Below, in pieces: positions 4,963-10,146 of a DNA stretch of 37,553 bases. The number at the start of each line of letters is the position of its first letter. Position 1 is the first letter of the stretch. The DNA is from Polyangiaceae bacterium (GTDB lineage Bacteria; Myxococcota_A; Polyangia; Polyangiales; Polyangiaceae). A program made the position numbers and the translations under genes. The stretch is from positions 1 to 37,553 of the forward strand of contig JADLAB010000084.1 in assembly GCA_020848455.1 (NCBI GenBank). Direction: 5' to 3'. Under the pieces are notes generated by a model. It worked only from the letters and a program-made list of their open reading frames with translations, did no database searches and was not told the DNA's origin.

Positions 4963-5922
4963 TCAGAAGCGCAGGCGCAACGTGGCGCCGCCCGGACCGG
5001 CCGTGACGGTCGCCTCGCCGTCACCGCCCCCGAAGGCGATCATCGCCGCCCCGACGGCGACGCCCGCGATCCCGATGCCGAGCCCGACGCCCGCGAGCGT
5101 CTCGGCGCGCTTGCCCTCGTCCACCACCGACCCGTACGCGGGGTCCGTGCACCGAACGCCGCCGCAGGCCGACTCGAGGGTCGCGAGCTTGTCGTTGGCC
5201 ATCGCGGTCCCGACCCCGAACGTGACGAAGCCGGCGACGCCGAGCAGAGCGACCCCGATGCCCGCGCCGCGAACGGCGCCGAAGCCCCCCGCCTCGCCGC
5301 CCGTGTCGGCCCCGGCGTTGCCCGGGGGCGGCGGCGTCGTGACGGCCGCCGCGGGCCCCGCGGCGCCCGACAGCAGCAGCGTCTCGAGCGCGCCCGGGGC
5401 GACGGTCTTCGATTGCTCGATGCGCGTCCCGTCCCGGCGCACGGCCGCGACGACGACACGGCCGGGCAGGACCGCGATCGGCACACCCAAGCGCTCGGCG
5501 GTGAGCGGCGCGCCGTCGAGCTCCACGGTCGCGCCCTGCAGGCTCGGATCGAGGGCGACGAGCACCTTGCCGACGCGTCCCTCGAGGACGGCGAGCTCGG
5601 CAGCCGCCTGGTCGCGGGTCTGGGCGTAGCGCTCCTCCTTCGGGGCGAGCTCGCGCGCGTCGCGCACCGTGCGGCTCATCTCCTCGTAGCCCTCGACGAG
5701 CTGACCGAGGTCGCGGAGGCAGCGGGCCACGTAGATGCGCGCGTTGGGGCTACCCGACGCGGCGAGGGCCTGTCGGAACAGGGGCAGCGCCCCCCGGAAG
5801 TCGCCCGCCTCGAAGCGGGTGCGGGCGTCGCGGAACGCGTCGTCGGCGTTCGGCGCCTGCGCGCTCGCCGGTGCGGCGAGCAAGAACGCACCGACGAACG
5901 CGAGCCAGAGCCAGTGTCGCAT
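4963..5922 (-). CDS. Secreted/membrane TPR protein with PEGA-like domain, partner of the upstream kinase
   Basis: A 319-residue envelope protein of unknown biochemical role. A signal peptide (MRHWLWLAFVGAFLLAAPASAQA, cleavage near residue 22) is followed by about two tetratricopeptide repeats (residues about 25-95, with DARTRFEAGDFRGALPLFRQ typical). A PEGA-like beta domain follows (about 115-185: GATVELDGAPL, VLPGRVVVAAVR), then two glycine-rich hydrophobic helices (about 218-245 and 280-305). The ATG shares one base with the kinase stop (TGATG), so it is translationally coupled to the kinase. Kinase plus TPR/PEGA membrane protein is a common Polyangia pairing. Domain calls are by eye; that it senses or scaffolds for the kinase is inference. 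Confidence 0.8.
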   Translation of the reverse strand: MRHWLWLAFVGAFLLAAPASAQAPNADDAFRDARTRFEAGDFRGALPLFRQALAASGSPNARIYVARCLRDLGQLVEGYEEMSRTVRDARELAPKEERYAQTRDQAAAELAVLEGRVGKVLVALDPSLQGATVELDGAPLTAERLGVPIAVLPGRVVVAAVRRDGTRIEQSKTVAPGALETLLLSGAAGPAAAVTTPPPPGNAGADTGGEAGGFGAVRGAGIGVALLGVAGFVTFGVGTAMANDKLATLESACGGVRCTDPAYGSVVDEGKRAETLAGVGLGIGIAGVAVGAAMIAFGGGDGEATVTAGPGGATLRLRF

Positions 5923-7412
5923 CAGAGTCGATCCGGGTTGTAGGTCTTGCTCTTCGAGGCGGCCGGCGGCGCGGCGCCGGTGCTCGGTGGCAGGGGCCGC
6001 GGCTTCGGCAAGCCGGCCGGCACGGCGGCTAGCTTGGCGCTCGCACTCGCACTCGCACTCGCACTCGCACTCGCGGCCGGTGCGGGCGCGCTCGTCGCCG
6101 CGCTCTCGAGCGCCGGCGTCGGCGACGCGGAGGCTGGCACCGCCGCCGCAGGGCTCGCCGACGCGTCCCCGGTCGCGTGCGCGGCCGCCGCCGCGTCGTC
6201 GCCGCCCCGCCCCGCGAGCACCGCGCCGCCGACGAGCCCGCCGACGGCGATGCACCCGCCGATCGCCATGGCGAGATACGGAAGGCGCCGCGCCGGCGCG
6301 TGCACGCCGCTCACCGACGCGGCCGTCGCGGTCACGCCCGAGCGCACGGAGGGTGCGGGCTCGGGGACGGAGCGCGTGGCCGAGCCGGGCTCCGACTCCG
6401 TCGCCGCGCTCTCCGTGCGCAGCGCGGGGGCCGACGGCGTCGGCGCCTGCGGCCTCGATTCGGGTGCCTGCTTGAGCTGGGCCAGGCGGCGTGGATCGAG
6501 CTTCTCGTGGGCGCCCGACTCCTCGACGAAGCGCGCGAGGGCGCGCGAGCTCGCGAGCGGTACCTTCGCCTCGGTGGCGGCGTGCTCCACGGCGTCGGCG
6601 AAGTCCGCGGCGGTCGCGAAGCGGTCGCCCGGCGCCCGCGCCAGGGCGCGCATGCAGGCCGCGTCGAGCGGGGCGGGCACCTCGGGGTTGGCCTGCCTCG
6701 GCGTCTCGCCGGGGCCCGCGAGCACCTTCTGCACGAGCGCCCCGTCGTTGTCCGCGTGGAAGAGCCGCTTGCCCGTCAGCATCTCCCAGAAGACGACCCC
6801 CGCCGCGTACACGTCGCAGCGCCGATCGACGGTCTCGCCCATCAGTTGCTCGGGGGGCATGTAGGGGACCTTGCCCTTCACCTGCGCGCCGCGGGTCGAG
6901 GACAGGCGCGCCTCGGCGCGCGCCACCCCGAAGTCGGTGATGCGCACCACGCCGTCGGCGCCGATGAGGATGTTCGCCGGCGACATGTCGCGGTGCACGA
7001 GGTTGAGCGGCGCGCCCGCGTCGTCGCAGAGCTCGTGCGCCGCGTGGAGGCCGGCGAGCGAGTCGACCAGGATCCGCGTCGCTACCTCGAACGGCACGAC
7101 CCGCTTCCGGAGCGCCTTGCGCAGCGCTTGCAGCGACGGCCCGTCGACGTACTCCATCACGATGAACAGGCCGTCGTCGGCCTGCACGTCGAGGGTGGCG
7201 ACGACGTTCGGGTGGCGGATGCGCGCCGCCAGCCGCGCCTCGTCGAGGAACATGTTGATGAAGTCGGCCTCGGCGGCGATGTGGGGATGCATCACCTTGA
7301 TCGCCACGAGCCGCTCGAAGCCTCCGACGCCGAGGGCGCGGCCGAGGTGCACGGTCGCCATGCCGCCCGAGGCGATGGGCGTGAGCACCTCGTAGCGACC
7401 CCCTAGCAGCAT
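5922..7412 (-). CDS. Membrane-bound Ser/Thr protein kinase (Hanks type, PknB-like)
   Basis: A 496-residue active-looking kinase. From the ATG at 7412 (GGAGAG ribosome site 3 nt upstream) it shows a glycine loop (IASGGMATVH, 13-22), catalytic Lys39 (VAIK), HRD at 140-142 followed by MSPANIL, DFG at 160-162 and the PPEQ activation-segment end (186-189). After a Pro/Ser-rich juxtamembrane stretch comes a single transmembrane helix at about 378-401. A Ser-Ala dipeptide repeat and a proline-rich tail follow, with no folded extracellular sensor domain. It directly precedes the TPR/PEGA gene, and the severed end of the glycine-rich lipoprotein frame lies 10 nt upstream. A longer start at 7463 is possible but would overlap that frame. 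Kinase identity is strong; substrates are unknown. Confidence 0.92.
   Translation of the reverse strand: MLLGGRYEVLTPIASGGMATVHLGRALGVGGFERLVAIKVMHPHIAAEADFINMFLDEARLAARIRHPNVVATLDVQADDGLFIVMEYVDGPSLQALRKALRKRVVPFEVATRILVDSLAGLHAAHELCDDAGAPLNLVHRDMSPANILIGADGVVRITDFGVARAEARLSSTRGAQVKGKVPYMPPEQLMGETVDRRCDVYAAGVVFWEMLTGKRLFHADNDGALVQKVLAGPGETPRQANPEVPAPLDAACMRALARAPGDRFATAADFADAVEHAATEAKVPLASSRALARFVEESGAHEKLDPRRLAQLKQAPESRPQAPTPSAPALRTESAATESEPGSATRSVPEPAPSVRSGVTATAASVSGVHAPARRLPYLAMAIGGCIAVGGLVGGAVLAGRGGDDAAAAAHATGDASASPAAAVPASASPTPALESAATSAPAPAASASASASASASAKLAAVPAGLPKPRPLPPSTGAAPPAASKSKTYNPDRL
6040..6075. repeat. CTCGCA hexanucleotide microsatellite encoding a Ser-Ala linker
   Basis: Six near-perfect 6-bp units inside the extracytoplasmic tail of the kinase at 5922-7412 encode alternating Ala and Ser on the minus strand. 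Hexamer slippage would change linker length without breaking the frame. Similar Ser-Ala tracts occur at about 11340-11378, 23655-23690 and 32490-32516. Confidence 0.8.
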
Positions 7413-7422
7413 GGTCTCTCCG

Positions 7423-7707
7423 TCAGCCGCCCGCGAGCGGCAGGCCTCCCAGAGTGTAGGCACCCGTCGCGAGCGAGGGGCTCACGAGGCCCTGCACCGA
7501 CGGCGCGTCGGCGTTGATCCGCACGCGGCCGACGGCTCCCCCGCCGCCGCCCGAGTCCGCGTAGGTCAGGCCGGCGCCGCCCGTCGGGGTGTCGCCAGCT
7601 CCGCCCGGACCCCCGTCGGCGGCCTCGCCACCCTCGGCGTTGCCACCCGCCGCGGGCTGGGAGCTCAGCTGTCCTGGCTGACCGGCCCGGCCAGCATCGC
7701 TGCCGCT
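7423..7707 (-). pseudogene. Severed C-terminal segment of the glycine-rich lipoprotein (after in-frame TGA)
   Basis: Directly beyond the TGA at 7708-7710 the same reading frame stays open for 94 codons and ends with TGA at 7423-7425, 10 nt before the kinase ATG. The translation begins SGSDAGRAGQPGQLSS, continues in the same Gly/Ala-rich style and ends with GGGGGAVGRVRINADA and SLATGAYTLGG. Glycine-rich beta proteins in this bacterial group typically end with a similar GxGRIRI strand. No start codon or ribosome site precedes it. It therefore looks like the original C-terminus, lost through a nonsense change, a sequencing error or an unrecognised recoding event. Confidence 0.7.
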
Positions 7708-8907
7708 TCACGTACAGTCTCCGGCGCCACCGCCGCCGCCGTTGGCCGCGAGAATGGCGCCCGTCGCCACCGTCACCGCGGGGGCCTCGAGCAGGATGGC
7801 ACCGCCGGCGCCACCGCCGGCGCCACCGCCGGTGACGGTCTCCCCACCCCCACCGCCGCCCGCGTCGATGCGGCCCGTCGCGCTCACGGTGAGGGTGCCG
7901 GTCGCGGTGATCTGCACGGCCCCGCCGCCGCCGCCGCCCGGACCCGCCTGGGAGCCGAAGTTGGGGATGACGACGCCGCCCCCGCCGCCGCTGCCGCCGA
8001 CGAGGGGGACGAGTGCCGGCGTGCCGCACGTGCCCGGCCCACCGAGCCCGCCGACGTGGCCATCGGGCGCGCTGCACGTGGATGCGCCGCCCGTGCCGCC
8101 TGCCGCCGGATGTCCCGCCCCGCCGCTGCCCGACGAGCAACCATTCGAGACGGGGGTCCCGGAGCCGAGGAGCCCACCGCACGCGCCGCCGCCCGGGGCG
8201 CCTGCCGCTCCACCCGCGTGACCGCCCGGCCCGGCCGACTGGCTCGAGGCGGCGACCGTCACGAGCCCGTGGATGGTGACGTCGCCGTCGACGAGCAGCA
8301 CGAGCGCGTTGGTGCCCGCGCCGCGCAGGGTCGTGCCCGCGGGGACGGTGAGGCCGGCCATCGAGAACACGCCGAGGCCGGGCTCGCTCCCGCCCTGGGC
8401 CTGGGTCGCGAACGCGATCCCGGTACCCGGATCGAGCCCGGCGACCGGCGGGCGAAGCTGGTTTCCCCCGCGCGTGATCTCGCCCGTGTCCGTGTCGAAG
8501 ACGGTGTCTGCGGCACCCGCGAGCACGAGCGGGCTGCTGCCCGCCAGGAGCTCCGCGGCGTCGACGTTGCTCGGCACCCCGCACGACCGGCTCCCGACGT
8601 CGCAGCCGAGCGGGCACGGCCCGAGCTCGACCCAGGCGTCGTTCACGCAGTGGTGCGCCGAGCCGTTCGGAAGGCACTCGAAGGTGTCGCCCGCGCACGG
8701 CTGCTGCGCGCCGCCCGCGCCGCCCGTGCCGCCGGTATCGTCGCCGCCCGCCCCACCGCCGCCGGTGCCCCCACCGCCGGTGCCCTGGCTGCCGCCGGTC
8801 CCCTCCGCGAGCCTCGGGTCGTACTGGTCCCAGTCGCGCCCGCAGGCCGTGGCGCCGACTGCGAGCGCGGCCCCCCACGAGAGCATGCGGAACGTCAGCG
8901 CGCGCAT
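7708..8907 (-). CDS. Glycine-rich surface lipoprotein, truncated by an in-frame TGA
   Basis: A 399-residue secreted protein with no catalytic motif that I recognise. The signal peptide MRALTFRMLSWGAALAVGATAC ends in a lipobox-like ATAC (Cys22), followed by a Gly/Thr-rich linker. A short Cys-containing domain then comes at about 60-110 (CAGDTFECLPNGSAHHCVN), and a long region of glycine-rich beta-helix-like repeats fills the rest. The frame stops at 7708 after GAGDCT but continues in frame for 94 further codons (7423-7707), so the full product would be about 494 codons. The ATG at 8907 is preceded by GAGG and by a TACGCT hexamer 8 nt upstream. The function is probably surface or extracellular-matrix related, by analogy only. 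Confidence 0.75.
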   Translation of the reverse strand: MRALTFRMLSWGAALAVGATACGRDWDQYDPRLAEGTGGSQGTGGGGTGGGGAGGDDTGGTGGAGGAQQPCAGDTFECLPNGSAHHCVNDAWVELGPCPLGCDVGSRSCGVPSNVDAAELLAGSSPLVLAGAADTVFDTDTGEITRGGNQLRPPVAGLDPGTGIAFATQAQGGSEPGLGVFSMAGLTVPAGTTLRGAGTNALVLLVDGDVTIHGLVTVAASSQSAGPGGHAGGAAGAPGGGACGGLLGSGTPVSNGCSSGSGGAGHPAAGGTGGASTCSAPDGHVGGLGGPGTCGTPALVPLVGGSGGGGGVVIPNFGSQAGPGGGGGGAVQITATGTLTVSATGRIDAGGGGGGETVTGGGAGGGAGGAILLEAPAVTVATGAILAANGGGGGAGDCT

Positions 8908-8965: not shown

Positions 8966-9934
8966 TCAGCCCGGCTCGTCGAGCAGCCGCTCGACGAGCG
9001 CGCCGAGCGCCGCCGTCTCGGCGGGCGAGTAGCCCGAGACGACCTCGCGCACGACGCCGCGCTTGTCGATGACGACGAGCGTGGGCAGGACGTCGATGTG
9101 GAAGGCGCCCTGCGTGCGCTGGGTCGGGTCGGCGGCGACCGGGTAGGGGATGGCCCAGTCGCGCGCCGCCGCCGCGGCTTCGGGCAGTGCGTCGTCCGCG
9201 ACCCCGAGGACGCGCAGGCCGCGCTCGCCGAAGCGCGTGTGGTAGCGCGCGAGCGCACCGACGCCGATGCGGCACGGCACGCACCAGCTCGCCCAGAAGT
9301 CGACGAGCACGACGTGGCCGCGCAGGCCCGCGAGCCCCGTCGGGAAGGCGTCGCCCACGGGCTCGAGCACGCCGAGCTCGGGGGCGAGCACGCCGACGAG
9401 CTCGAGGCGCGCGGTCTCGCCCGGGGCGGGTGCGCGGCCGAGCTCGGCCTCGAGCTCGAGGTCGGCGCCGGCGCGCCGCACCGTGAGCGGGCAGGTTTCG
9501 CCGGGCGCGTGGCTCCCCACCTCGCGCTGCAGCTCGCGCGGCGCGCGCACGGCGGTGCCGTCGACCGCGAGCACGAGATCGCCCGCGAGCACGCCTGCCT
9601 GCGCGGCGGGGGAGCCCCGGACCACCGCCTTGACGAGCACGCCCTCGCCCGGGGCGGGGCCGAGCTCGACGCCGAGCCACGTGCGGCCGGTGAACCGGAC
9701 GTCGCGCGCCCGCGCCTCGTCGGCACCCGAGGTGGCGTGGGCACCGGTCGCGTCCGGGGCGGCCTCGCCGGTGGGACTGCCCGCGGGGGCCGCAGCCGGC
9801 ATCCGGCCGAGCCAGCCGCCGTCGAGCGCGGGCTCCGACGCCGGCCGCACGGGTGCGCAGGCCACGAGCCCCACGAGCCCCACGAGCCCCACGAGCCCCG
9901 GCAGCCCCCAGGCGAATCGTCCCAGCGCTCGCAT
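8966..9934 (-). CDS. Lipoprotein with PDZ domain fused to a TlpA/ResA-like thioredoxin domain
   Basis: A 322-residue envelope protein combining a PDZ domain (about 85-150: GVELGPAPGEGVLVKAVV, AQAGVLAGDLVLAVDG) with a thioredoxin fold of TlpA type. The WCVPC active site is at 217-221 and a cis-Pro motif DVLPTL at about 281-286. The N-terminus is a lipoprotein signal (LVAC lipobox, Cys26) whose hydrophobic core is made of a 9-bp repeat. TlpA-type domains reduce disulfides in cytochrome c or copper-site maturation, or act in redox sensing; the PDZ part would recruit a partner. I chose the ATG at 9934 because it gives a compact signal peptide; 9955 is an alternative. A PDZ-thioredoxin fusion is an uncommon order, and its substrate is unknown. 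Confidence 0.85.
   Translation of the reverse strand: MRALGRFAWGLPGLVGLVGLVGLVACAPVRPASEPALDGGWLGRMPAAAPAGSPTGEAAPDATGAHATSGADEARARDVRFTGRTWLGVELGPAPGEGVLVKAVVRGSPAAQAGVLAGDLVLAVDGTAVRAPRELQREVGSHAPGETCPLTVRRAGADLELEAELGRAPAPGETARLELVGVLAPELGVLEPVGDAFPTGLAGLRGHVVLVDFWASWCVPCRIGVGALARYHTRFGERGLRVLGVADDALPEAAAAARDWAIPYPVAADPTQRTQGAFHIDVLPTLVVIDKRGVVREVVSGYSPAETAALGALVERLLDEPG
9862..9899. repeat. 9-bp tandem repeat inside a lipoprotein signal peptide
   Basis: Four copies of CCACGAGCC-type 9-mers encode GLV-GLV-GLV-GLV on the minus strand. They form the hydrophobic core of the signal peptide of the PDZ-thioredoxin lipoprotein. Gain or loss of units would change the core by three residues per step. 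Confidence 0.85.
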
Positions 9935-10146
9935 CCGCCGCTCATGATGCCGCATCGGCGGGGAGCGGTCGACCGACCGGACCCGCGGGGCGTTGTGCCA
10001 GGGTGCGCCAGGATGCGATCGGGCCGGGGGTTTCGGGCTCACGAATCGAACGCAAGTGACCGTAAATACGTCATGTCGCAGCGCCTGGGCGGCTGGTACG
10101 CCGCGTGCTTTGCAGGGGCGGCGGCGAACGACGAAGGCGGGTGATC

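Follow-up and report, generated by a model that had tools for sequence, protein, structure and literature searches.

A glycine-rich lipoprotein gene of Polyangia with a conserved in-frame UGA that very probably encodes selenocysteine

Here we describe a 37,553-nucleotide stretch of DNA (the window) from a Polyangiaceae bacterium (genome G000), in which a gene for a glycine-rich lipoprotein is split by an in-frame TGA (Table 1). On the minus strand, the lipoprotein frame starts with an ATG at 8907 (MRALTFRMLSWGAALAVGATACGRDW...) and meets this TGA at 7710-7708, which is codon 400. The frame then runs on for 94 further codons (SGSDAGRAGQPGQL...GRVRINADAPSVQG...LAGG) until it is closed by a second TGA at 7425-7423, and a gap of 10 nt (CGGAGAGACC) separates this stop from the ATG of a kinase gene (7412-7410). 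Re-reading of the minus strand confirmed what a preliminary description of the locus had reported about the position of the internal TGA and the open frame that ends just before the kinase start. That description took a nonsense mutation or sequencing error to be the simplest explanation and only mentioned selenocysteine (Sec) decoding, with a downstream stem as SECIS; the first view does not hold, given that the TGA and the downstream frame are conserved in independent genomes, and it is the second that our analysis favors.

Table 1. Features of the lipoprotein locus and its neighbors in the window
Feature	Position	Strand	Remarks
Glycine-rich lipoprotein coding frame through internal TGA	7426..8907	-	494 aa, with predicted Sec400; stop TGA 7423-7425; from sequence and homologues
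Predicted lipoprotein signal peptide, residues 1-22	8842..8907	-	Lipobox-like GATA-Cys22, read by eye
N-terminal six-Cys domain, Cys71-Cys109	8581..8697	-	Common to TGA-less homologues
Cys398 codon TGT	7714..7716	-	Candidate resolving Cys in Cys-x-Sec; present in every TGA-clade member
In-frame TGA, predicted to be read as Sec400	7708..7710	-	One alignment column in 9/9 TGA-form genes
Putative bacterial SECIS	7677..7695	-	5' arm 7688-7695 GCUGGCCG, loop 7685-7687 GGC, 3' arm 7677-7684 CGGUCAGC; UGA-to-loop 20 nt
Post-Sec segment, 94 codons	7426..7707	-	Purifying selection, dN/dS 0.123
Ser/Thr protein kinase gene	5922..7412	-	ATG 7412, 10 nt downstream of the lipoprotein frame
PDZ + AhpC/TSA-Redoxin-like protein with WCxxC	8966..10042	-	Upstream of the lipoprotein gene; possible redox partner (inferred)

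The TGA occupies a single column in all nine aligned homologous genes that carry it, which come from seven genomes and five families of the class, and its surroundings take the form ANGGGG...GDC[TSN]-TGA, the last part being present in every case. This set consists of genes from the window genome, G001, G083 (two paralogues), G219, G207, G187 and G221 (two genes); two genera belong to the window's own family, and the remaining genomes come from four further families of the class. In the congener G001 (94% identity), the TGA stands at the identical codon, two paralogues of G083, a second genus of the family, have it as well (60 and 57%), and so do the genes of G219, G207, G187 and G221 from elsewhere in the class. 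The TGA is thereby shared down to ~40% protein identity, and across independent assemblies, since G001 is NC_groundwater_1660_Pr3_B-0.1um_73_17 and G083 is CSMAG_262. The TGA form is monophyletic (support 93/87). The alignment with relatives that had been proposed earlier thus finds the TGA itself in relatives, and the motif is absent in other clades. In-frame TGAs first assigned to two further loci, L078 and L089, proved on inspection to be terminal stops.

Conservation extends past the TGA. In most pairs, protein identity is alike on its two sides (60.3/59.1% for the window gene and the G083a paralogue, 45.6/44.6% for the window gene and G207, and 55.3/56.4% in another pair), the clearest exception being the window gene and G219 (51.6/37.6%). 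Between the congeners, dN/dS is 0.12 past the TGA vs 0.35-0.40 before it, the tail having 15 synonymous changes against 5 non-synonymous ones, and not one substitution of any kind lies between 20 codons before and 14 codons after the TGA. Judged from these comparisons, the tail past the TGA is translated.

As the preliminary description had claimed, a stem (GCTGGCC/GGTCAGC, loop GGGCC) begins 12 nt after the TGA; it can alternatively be drawn as 8 bp with a GGC loop (GCUGGCCG-GGC-CGGUCAGC) at a spacing of 20 nt, and the 42-nt stretch folds at -14.2 kcal/mol. This hairpin satisfies the published constraints on bacterial SECIS (bSECIS) elements, namely 16-37 nt to the loop and a loop with G[G/U] (PMC13188914). 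Across the TGA-form genes the hairpin starts 9-13 nt after the TGA, as in G083a (GCUGGCCA-GUC-UGGCCAGC) and G207 (UUGGCCA-GGC-UGGCCAA), and that of G187 is imperfect. Over the nine sequences, 93% of cells are paired and four of the eight pairs show double (compensatory) changes; the covariation score of 0.354, vs 0.210 for shuffled and at most 0.128 for slid controls, was reached in 1 of 500 shuffles and in none of the slid controls. Consensus structure prediction returned this helix as well. When a covariance model was built from seven sequences, leaving out those of the window and G001, its best match in the window was at 7672-7710 (35 bits, E 1e-7; next match 11.8 bits, E 0.37), a score to which coding-sequence homology contributes. 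The same model gave no significant match of the hairpin in TGA-less homologues, and an Rfam search gave no SECIS match in the hairpin region.

Counting both strands, the window has 487 TGAs; under a strict stem rule (at least 7 bp, a loop of 3-5 nt starting with G[GT], SECIS spacing of 16-24 nt), only that at 7708-7710 qualifies, compared with 0.4% of random positions. Looser rules admit 7-14 of the 487, so taken alone the hairpin would count for little; it is conservation together with covariation that carries the case for Sec. Codons ending in A or T are enriched in the hairpin stretch of the window gene (6/16 vs 43/477 in the rest, p 0.003), as expected if RNA structure constrains codons; such enrichment reaches p below 0.05 in two other members and falls short of it in four. 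At the TGA, local folding is energetically unexceptional for so GC-rich a gene, and this measure was set aside as uninformative. Conservation of the hairpin sequence could in part be due to the AGQ(A/S)GQPG peptide that it encodes.

A search of the genome for selA, selB and selC, proposed at the outset, found all of them, and with selD the four genes are present in G000. The tRNA-Sec gene (selC, anticodon UCA) adjoins selB on C410, a contig of a fragmented assembly whose place in the window genome is an assumption; selA lies on C326, and selD contains an in-frame TGA (L111, G000:C11). G083 has selB beside tRNA-Sec and a TGA-containing selD, and G001 has selA and a TGA-containing selD, while selB and selC were not detected in this 86% complete assembly. 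The tRNA-Sec and selB genes are divergently adjacent, ~50 nt apart, at L049 465-2557 (G000:C410) and L095 5249-7303 (G083:C780). In all three genomes the selD TGA (L111; L112, G001:C342; L110, G083:C307) stands in the motif GGG-U-A[RA]K, and SelD is itself probably a selenoprotein by this sequence signature; in the window genome, a hairpin with a GUC loop follows the selD TGA. Overall, six of seven TGA-form genomes have a tRNA-Sec gene, vs one of 14 checked genomes with only TGA-less homologues (G305; Fisher p 0.0009). A tRNA-Sec match in G039 was rejected, as ARAGORN calls it tRNA-Ser(tga). On one contig, G221:C21, a TGA paralogue (L127 6653-6691) lies ~18 kb from a tRNA-Sec gene (L129).

Sequencing error, or a recent nonsense mutation behind which the tail decays, is what most often produces a lone in-frame stop in a draft genome, yet the identical TGA recurs in independent assemblies to ~40% protein identity and the sequence beyond it is under purifying selection; we give this explanation practically no credence, and the internal TGA is very probably, on the comparative evidence, a conserved Sec signal rather than a mutation. 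A conserved UGA and frame would also be expected from SECIS-independent programmed readthrough, in which a near-cognate tRNA (e.g. Trp or Cys) reads the UGA and the hairpin only slows termination, and hairpins 3' of stop codons can indeed promote readthrough. However, this would leave aside the occurrence of tRNA-Sec in TGA-form genomes and its rarity in TGA-less ones, the match of the hairpin to bSECIS spacing and loop rules, the invariant Cys two residues ahead of the UGA, and the use of UGA in the selD genes of the same genomes, and we regard it as unlikely.

It is very unlikely, in our estimate, that the UGA is a true stop, the C-terminal part being a gene of its own or the truncated form having a role in a dual-product arrangement. 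A truncated product is likely, since Sec decoding of UGA is usually incomplete (PMC4513850 puts UGA-to-Sec recoding in vivo at 30-40%), but the frame is unbroken, there is no start codon near the TGA, and TGA-less homologues are continuous across the site, with the tail aligning to them. Whole-genome reassignment of UGA is unsupported, as ordinary stops terminate the lipoprotein gene and its relatives, and in the window that stop is itself a UGA.

We hold with high confidence that the lipoprotein gene encodes a selenoprotein in which UGA 7708-7710 is read as Sec, a reading that draws on the conserved UGA, the conserved downstream coding, the covarying SECIS-like hairpin and the Sec machinery. 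In our model, the ribosome would read this UGA as Sec via the SelB, tRNA-Sec, SelA and SelD encoded in the same genome, directed by the bSECIS hairpin 12 nt downstream, and the second UGA (7423-7425) would terminate the protein. The product would be secreted as a lipoprotein, its N-terminal domain holding six cysteines and its body rich in glycine and beta strands. Sec400 sits in a glycine-rich loop, within the motif G-D-C-[TSN]-U, and is probably joined to Cys398 by a selenenylsulfide. Cys398 and Sec400 would together act as a thiol/selenol redox centre at the surface or in the periplasm, and the remaining clade-specific cysteines would fall into two pairs, 243/294 and 257/278. Sec insertion itself, lipidation, the selenenylsulfide, redox function and the substrate are what we infer from these features, as is a biochemical role outside the cytoplasm, where the centre would do thiol/selenol redox chemistry or react with metal(loid)s.

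Cys243, Cys294 and Cys398 occur in all nine TGA-form proteins and Cys257 and Cys278 in most, both being missing from L109; L106, a near TGA-less relative, keeps Cys243 and Cys294 and is without Cys257, Cys278, Cys398 and Sec. This co-occurrence in the TGA clade and L106 suggests that 243 pairs with 294 and 257 with 278 as disulfides, and that 398 and 400 form a selenenylsulfide. By eye, the lipobox (GATA-C in the window) is clearer in the homologues L061 (LVLGC) and L099 (LLAGC). A close Cys-for-Sec orthologue was not found, the remote hints being L064 (HSCGC), L088 (Cys/Cys) and L079. The first of these, a third G083 paralogue (L064 2158-2172, G083:C869), has Cys-x-Cys where the other two have Cys-x-Sec and branches far away; it is either convergent or a Cys form. 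An AlphaFold prediction from four sequences had a mean pLDDT of 46, with only beta strands credible, and is too weak for cysteine proximity; Foldseek with this low-confidence model gave no significant match in the PDB, and a sequence search of solved structures found nothing.

The kinase gene is probably co-transcribed with the lipoprotein gene. A kinase neighbor occurs only at the window, G001 and G083a copies and near none of the distant TGA-form members; at G083a, a kinase resembling that of the window (L097 2-1498, G083:C434) lies divergently upstream, so the link survives rearrangement within the family. Directly upstream of the lipoprotein gene, 8966-10042 encodes a PDZ + redoxin/ResA-like protein with WASWCVPC, to which the NCBIfam Trx7/PDZ (seleno)protein model matches weakly and over the PDZ part only. 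This protein could be the reductant of the lipoprotein, a pairing that is not conserved in distant members.

In its in-frame UGA, G[G/U]-loop hairpin and genomic Sec machinery, the gene resembles those of SelB/SECIS-decoded selenoproteins such as formate dehydrogenase FdhA and Sec-containing SelD; the lipoprotein, however, is related to none of the 119 families or subfamilies of prokaryotic selenoproteins listed in a 2026 review (PMC13188914, Table 1), a catalogue with no glycine-rich lipoprotein and no GDC[TSN]U-type motif. Neither Pfam nor NCBIfam gave a match to the protein at E up to 1, and by these it is neither thioredoxin-like nor a metal-cofactor enzyme. It shares Cys-x-Sec spacing with CxU selenoproteins (rhodanese-like form 3 NF041203, UshA-like NF041198, thioredoxin-like Sec.1) but differs from those catalogued in its glycine-rich repeat scaffold. 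With TGA-less glycine-rich lipoproteins of Polyangia (e.g. L102-L108, L070-L094) it has in common the six-Cys N-terminal domain, the PSN motif, the glycine-rich beta-repeat body and a C-terminal GRIRxN strand, whereas these lack the GDC[TSN]U motif, the hairpin and most of the Cys243/257/278/294 set. A full-text literature search on selenoproteins or selenocysteine in myxobacteria, Myxococcota, Sorangium or Polyangi found nothing relevant. The decoding system is thus known, and the protein family appears to be new.

Altogether, we lean towards the view that this lipoprotein represents a new class of selenoprotein at the cell surface, in which glycine-rich beta-repeats carry a Cys-x-Sec centre and further paired cysteines; such a protein would give uncultured Polyangia a redox or metal(loid)-handling site outside the inner membrane, built on a scaffold other than thioredoxin. 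Gene callers usually cut selenoproteins at UGA, so the C-terminal fifth of the protein is probably absent from public annotations; GDC[TSN]U together with the SECIS offers a testable signature. The family would add a selenoprotein scaffold unlike those catalogued, and it raises the question of why selenium sits in a glycine-rich lipoprotein.
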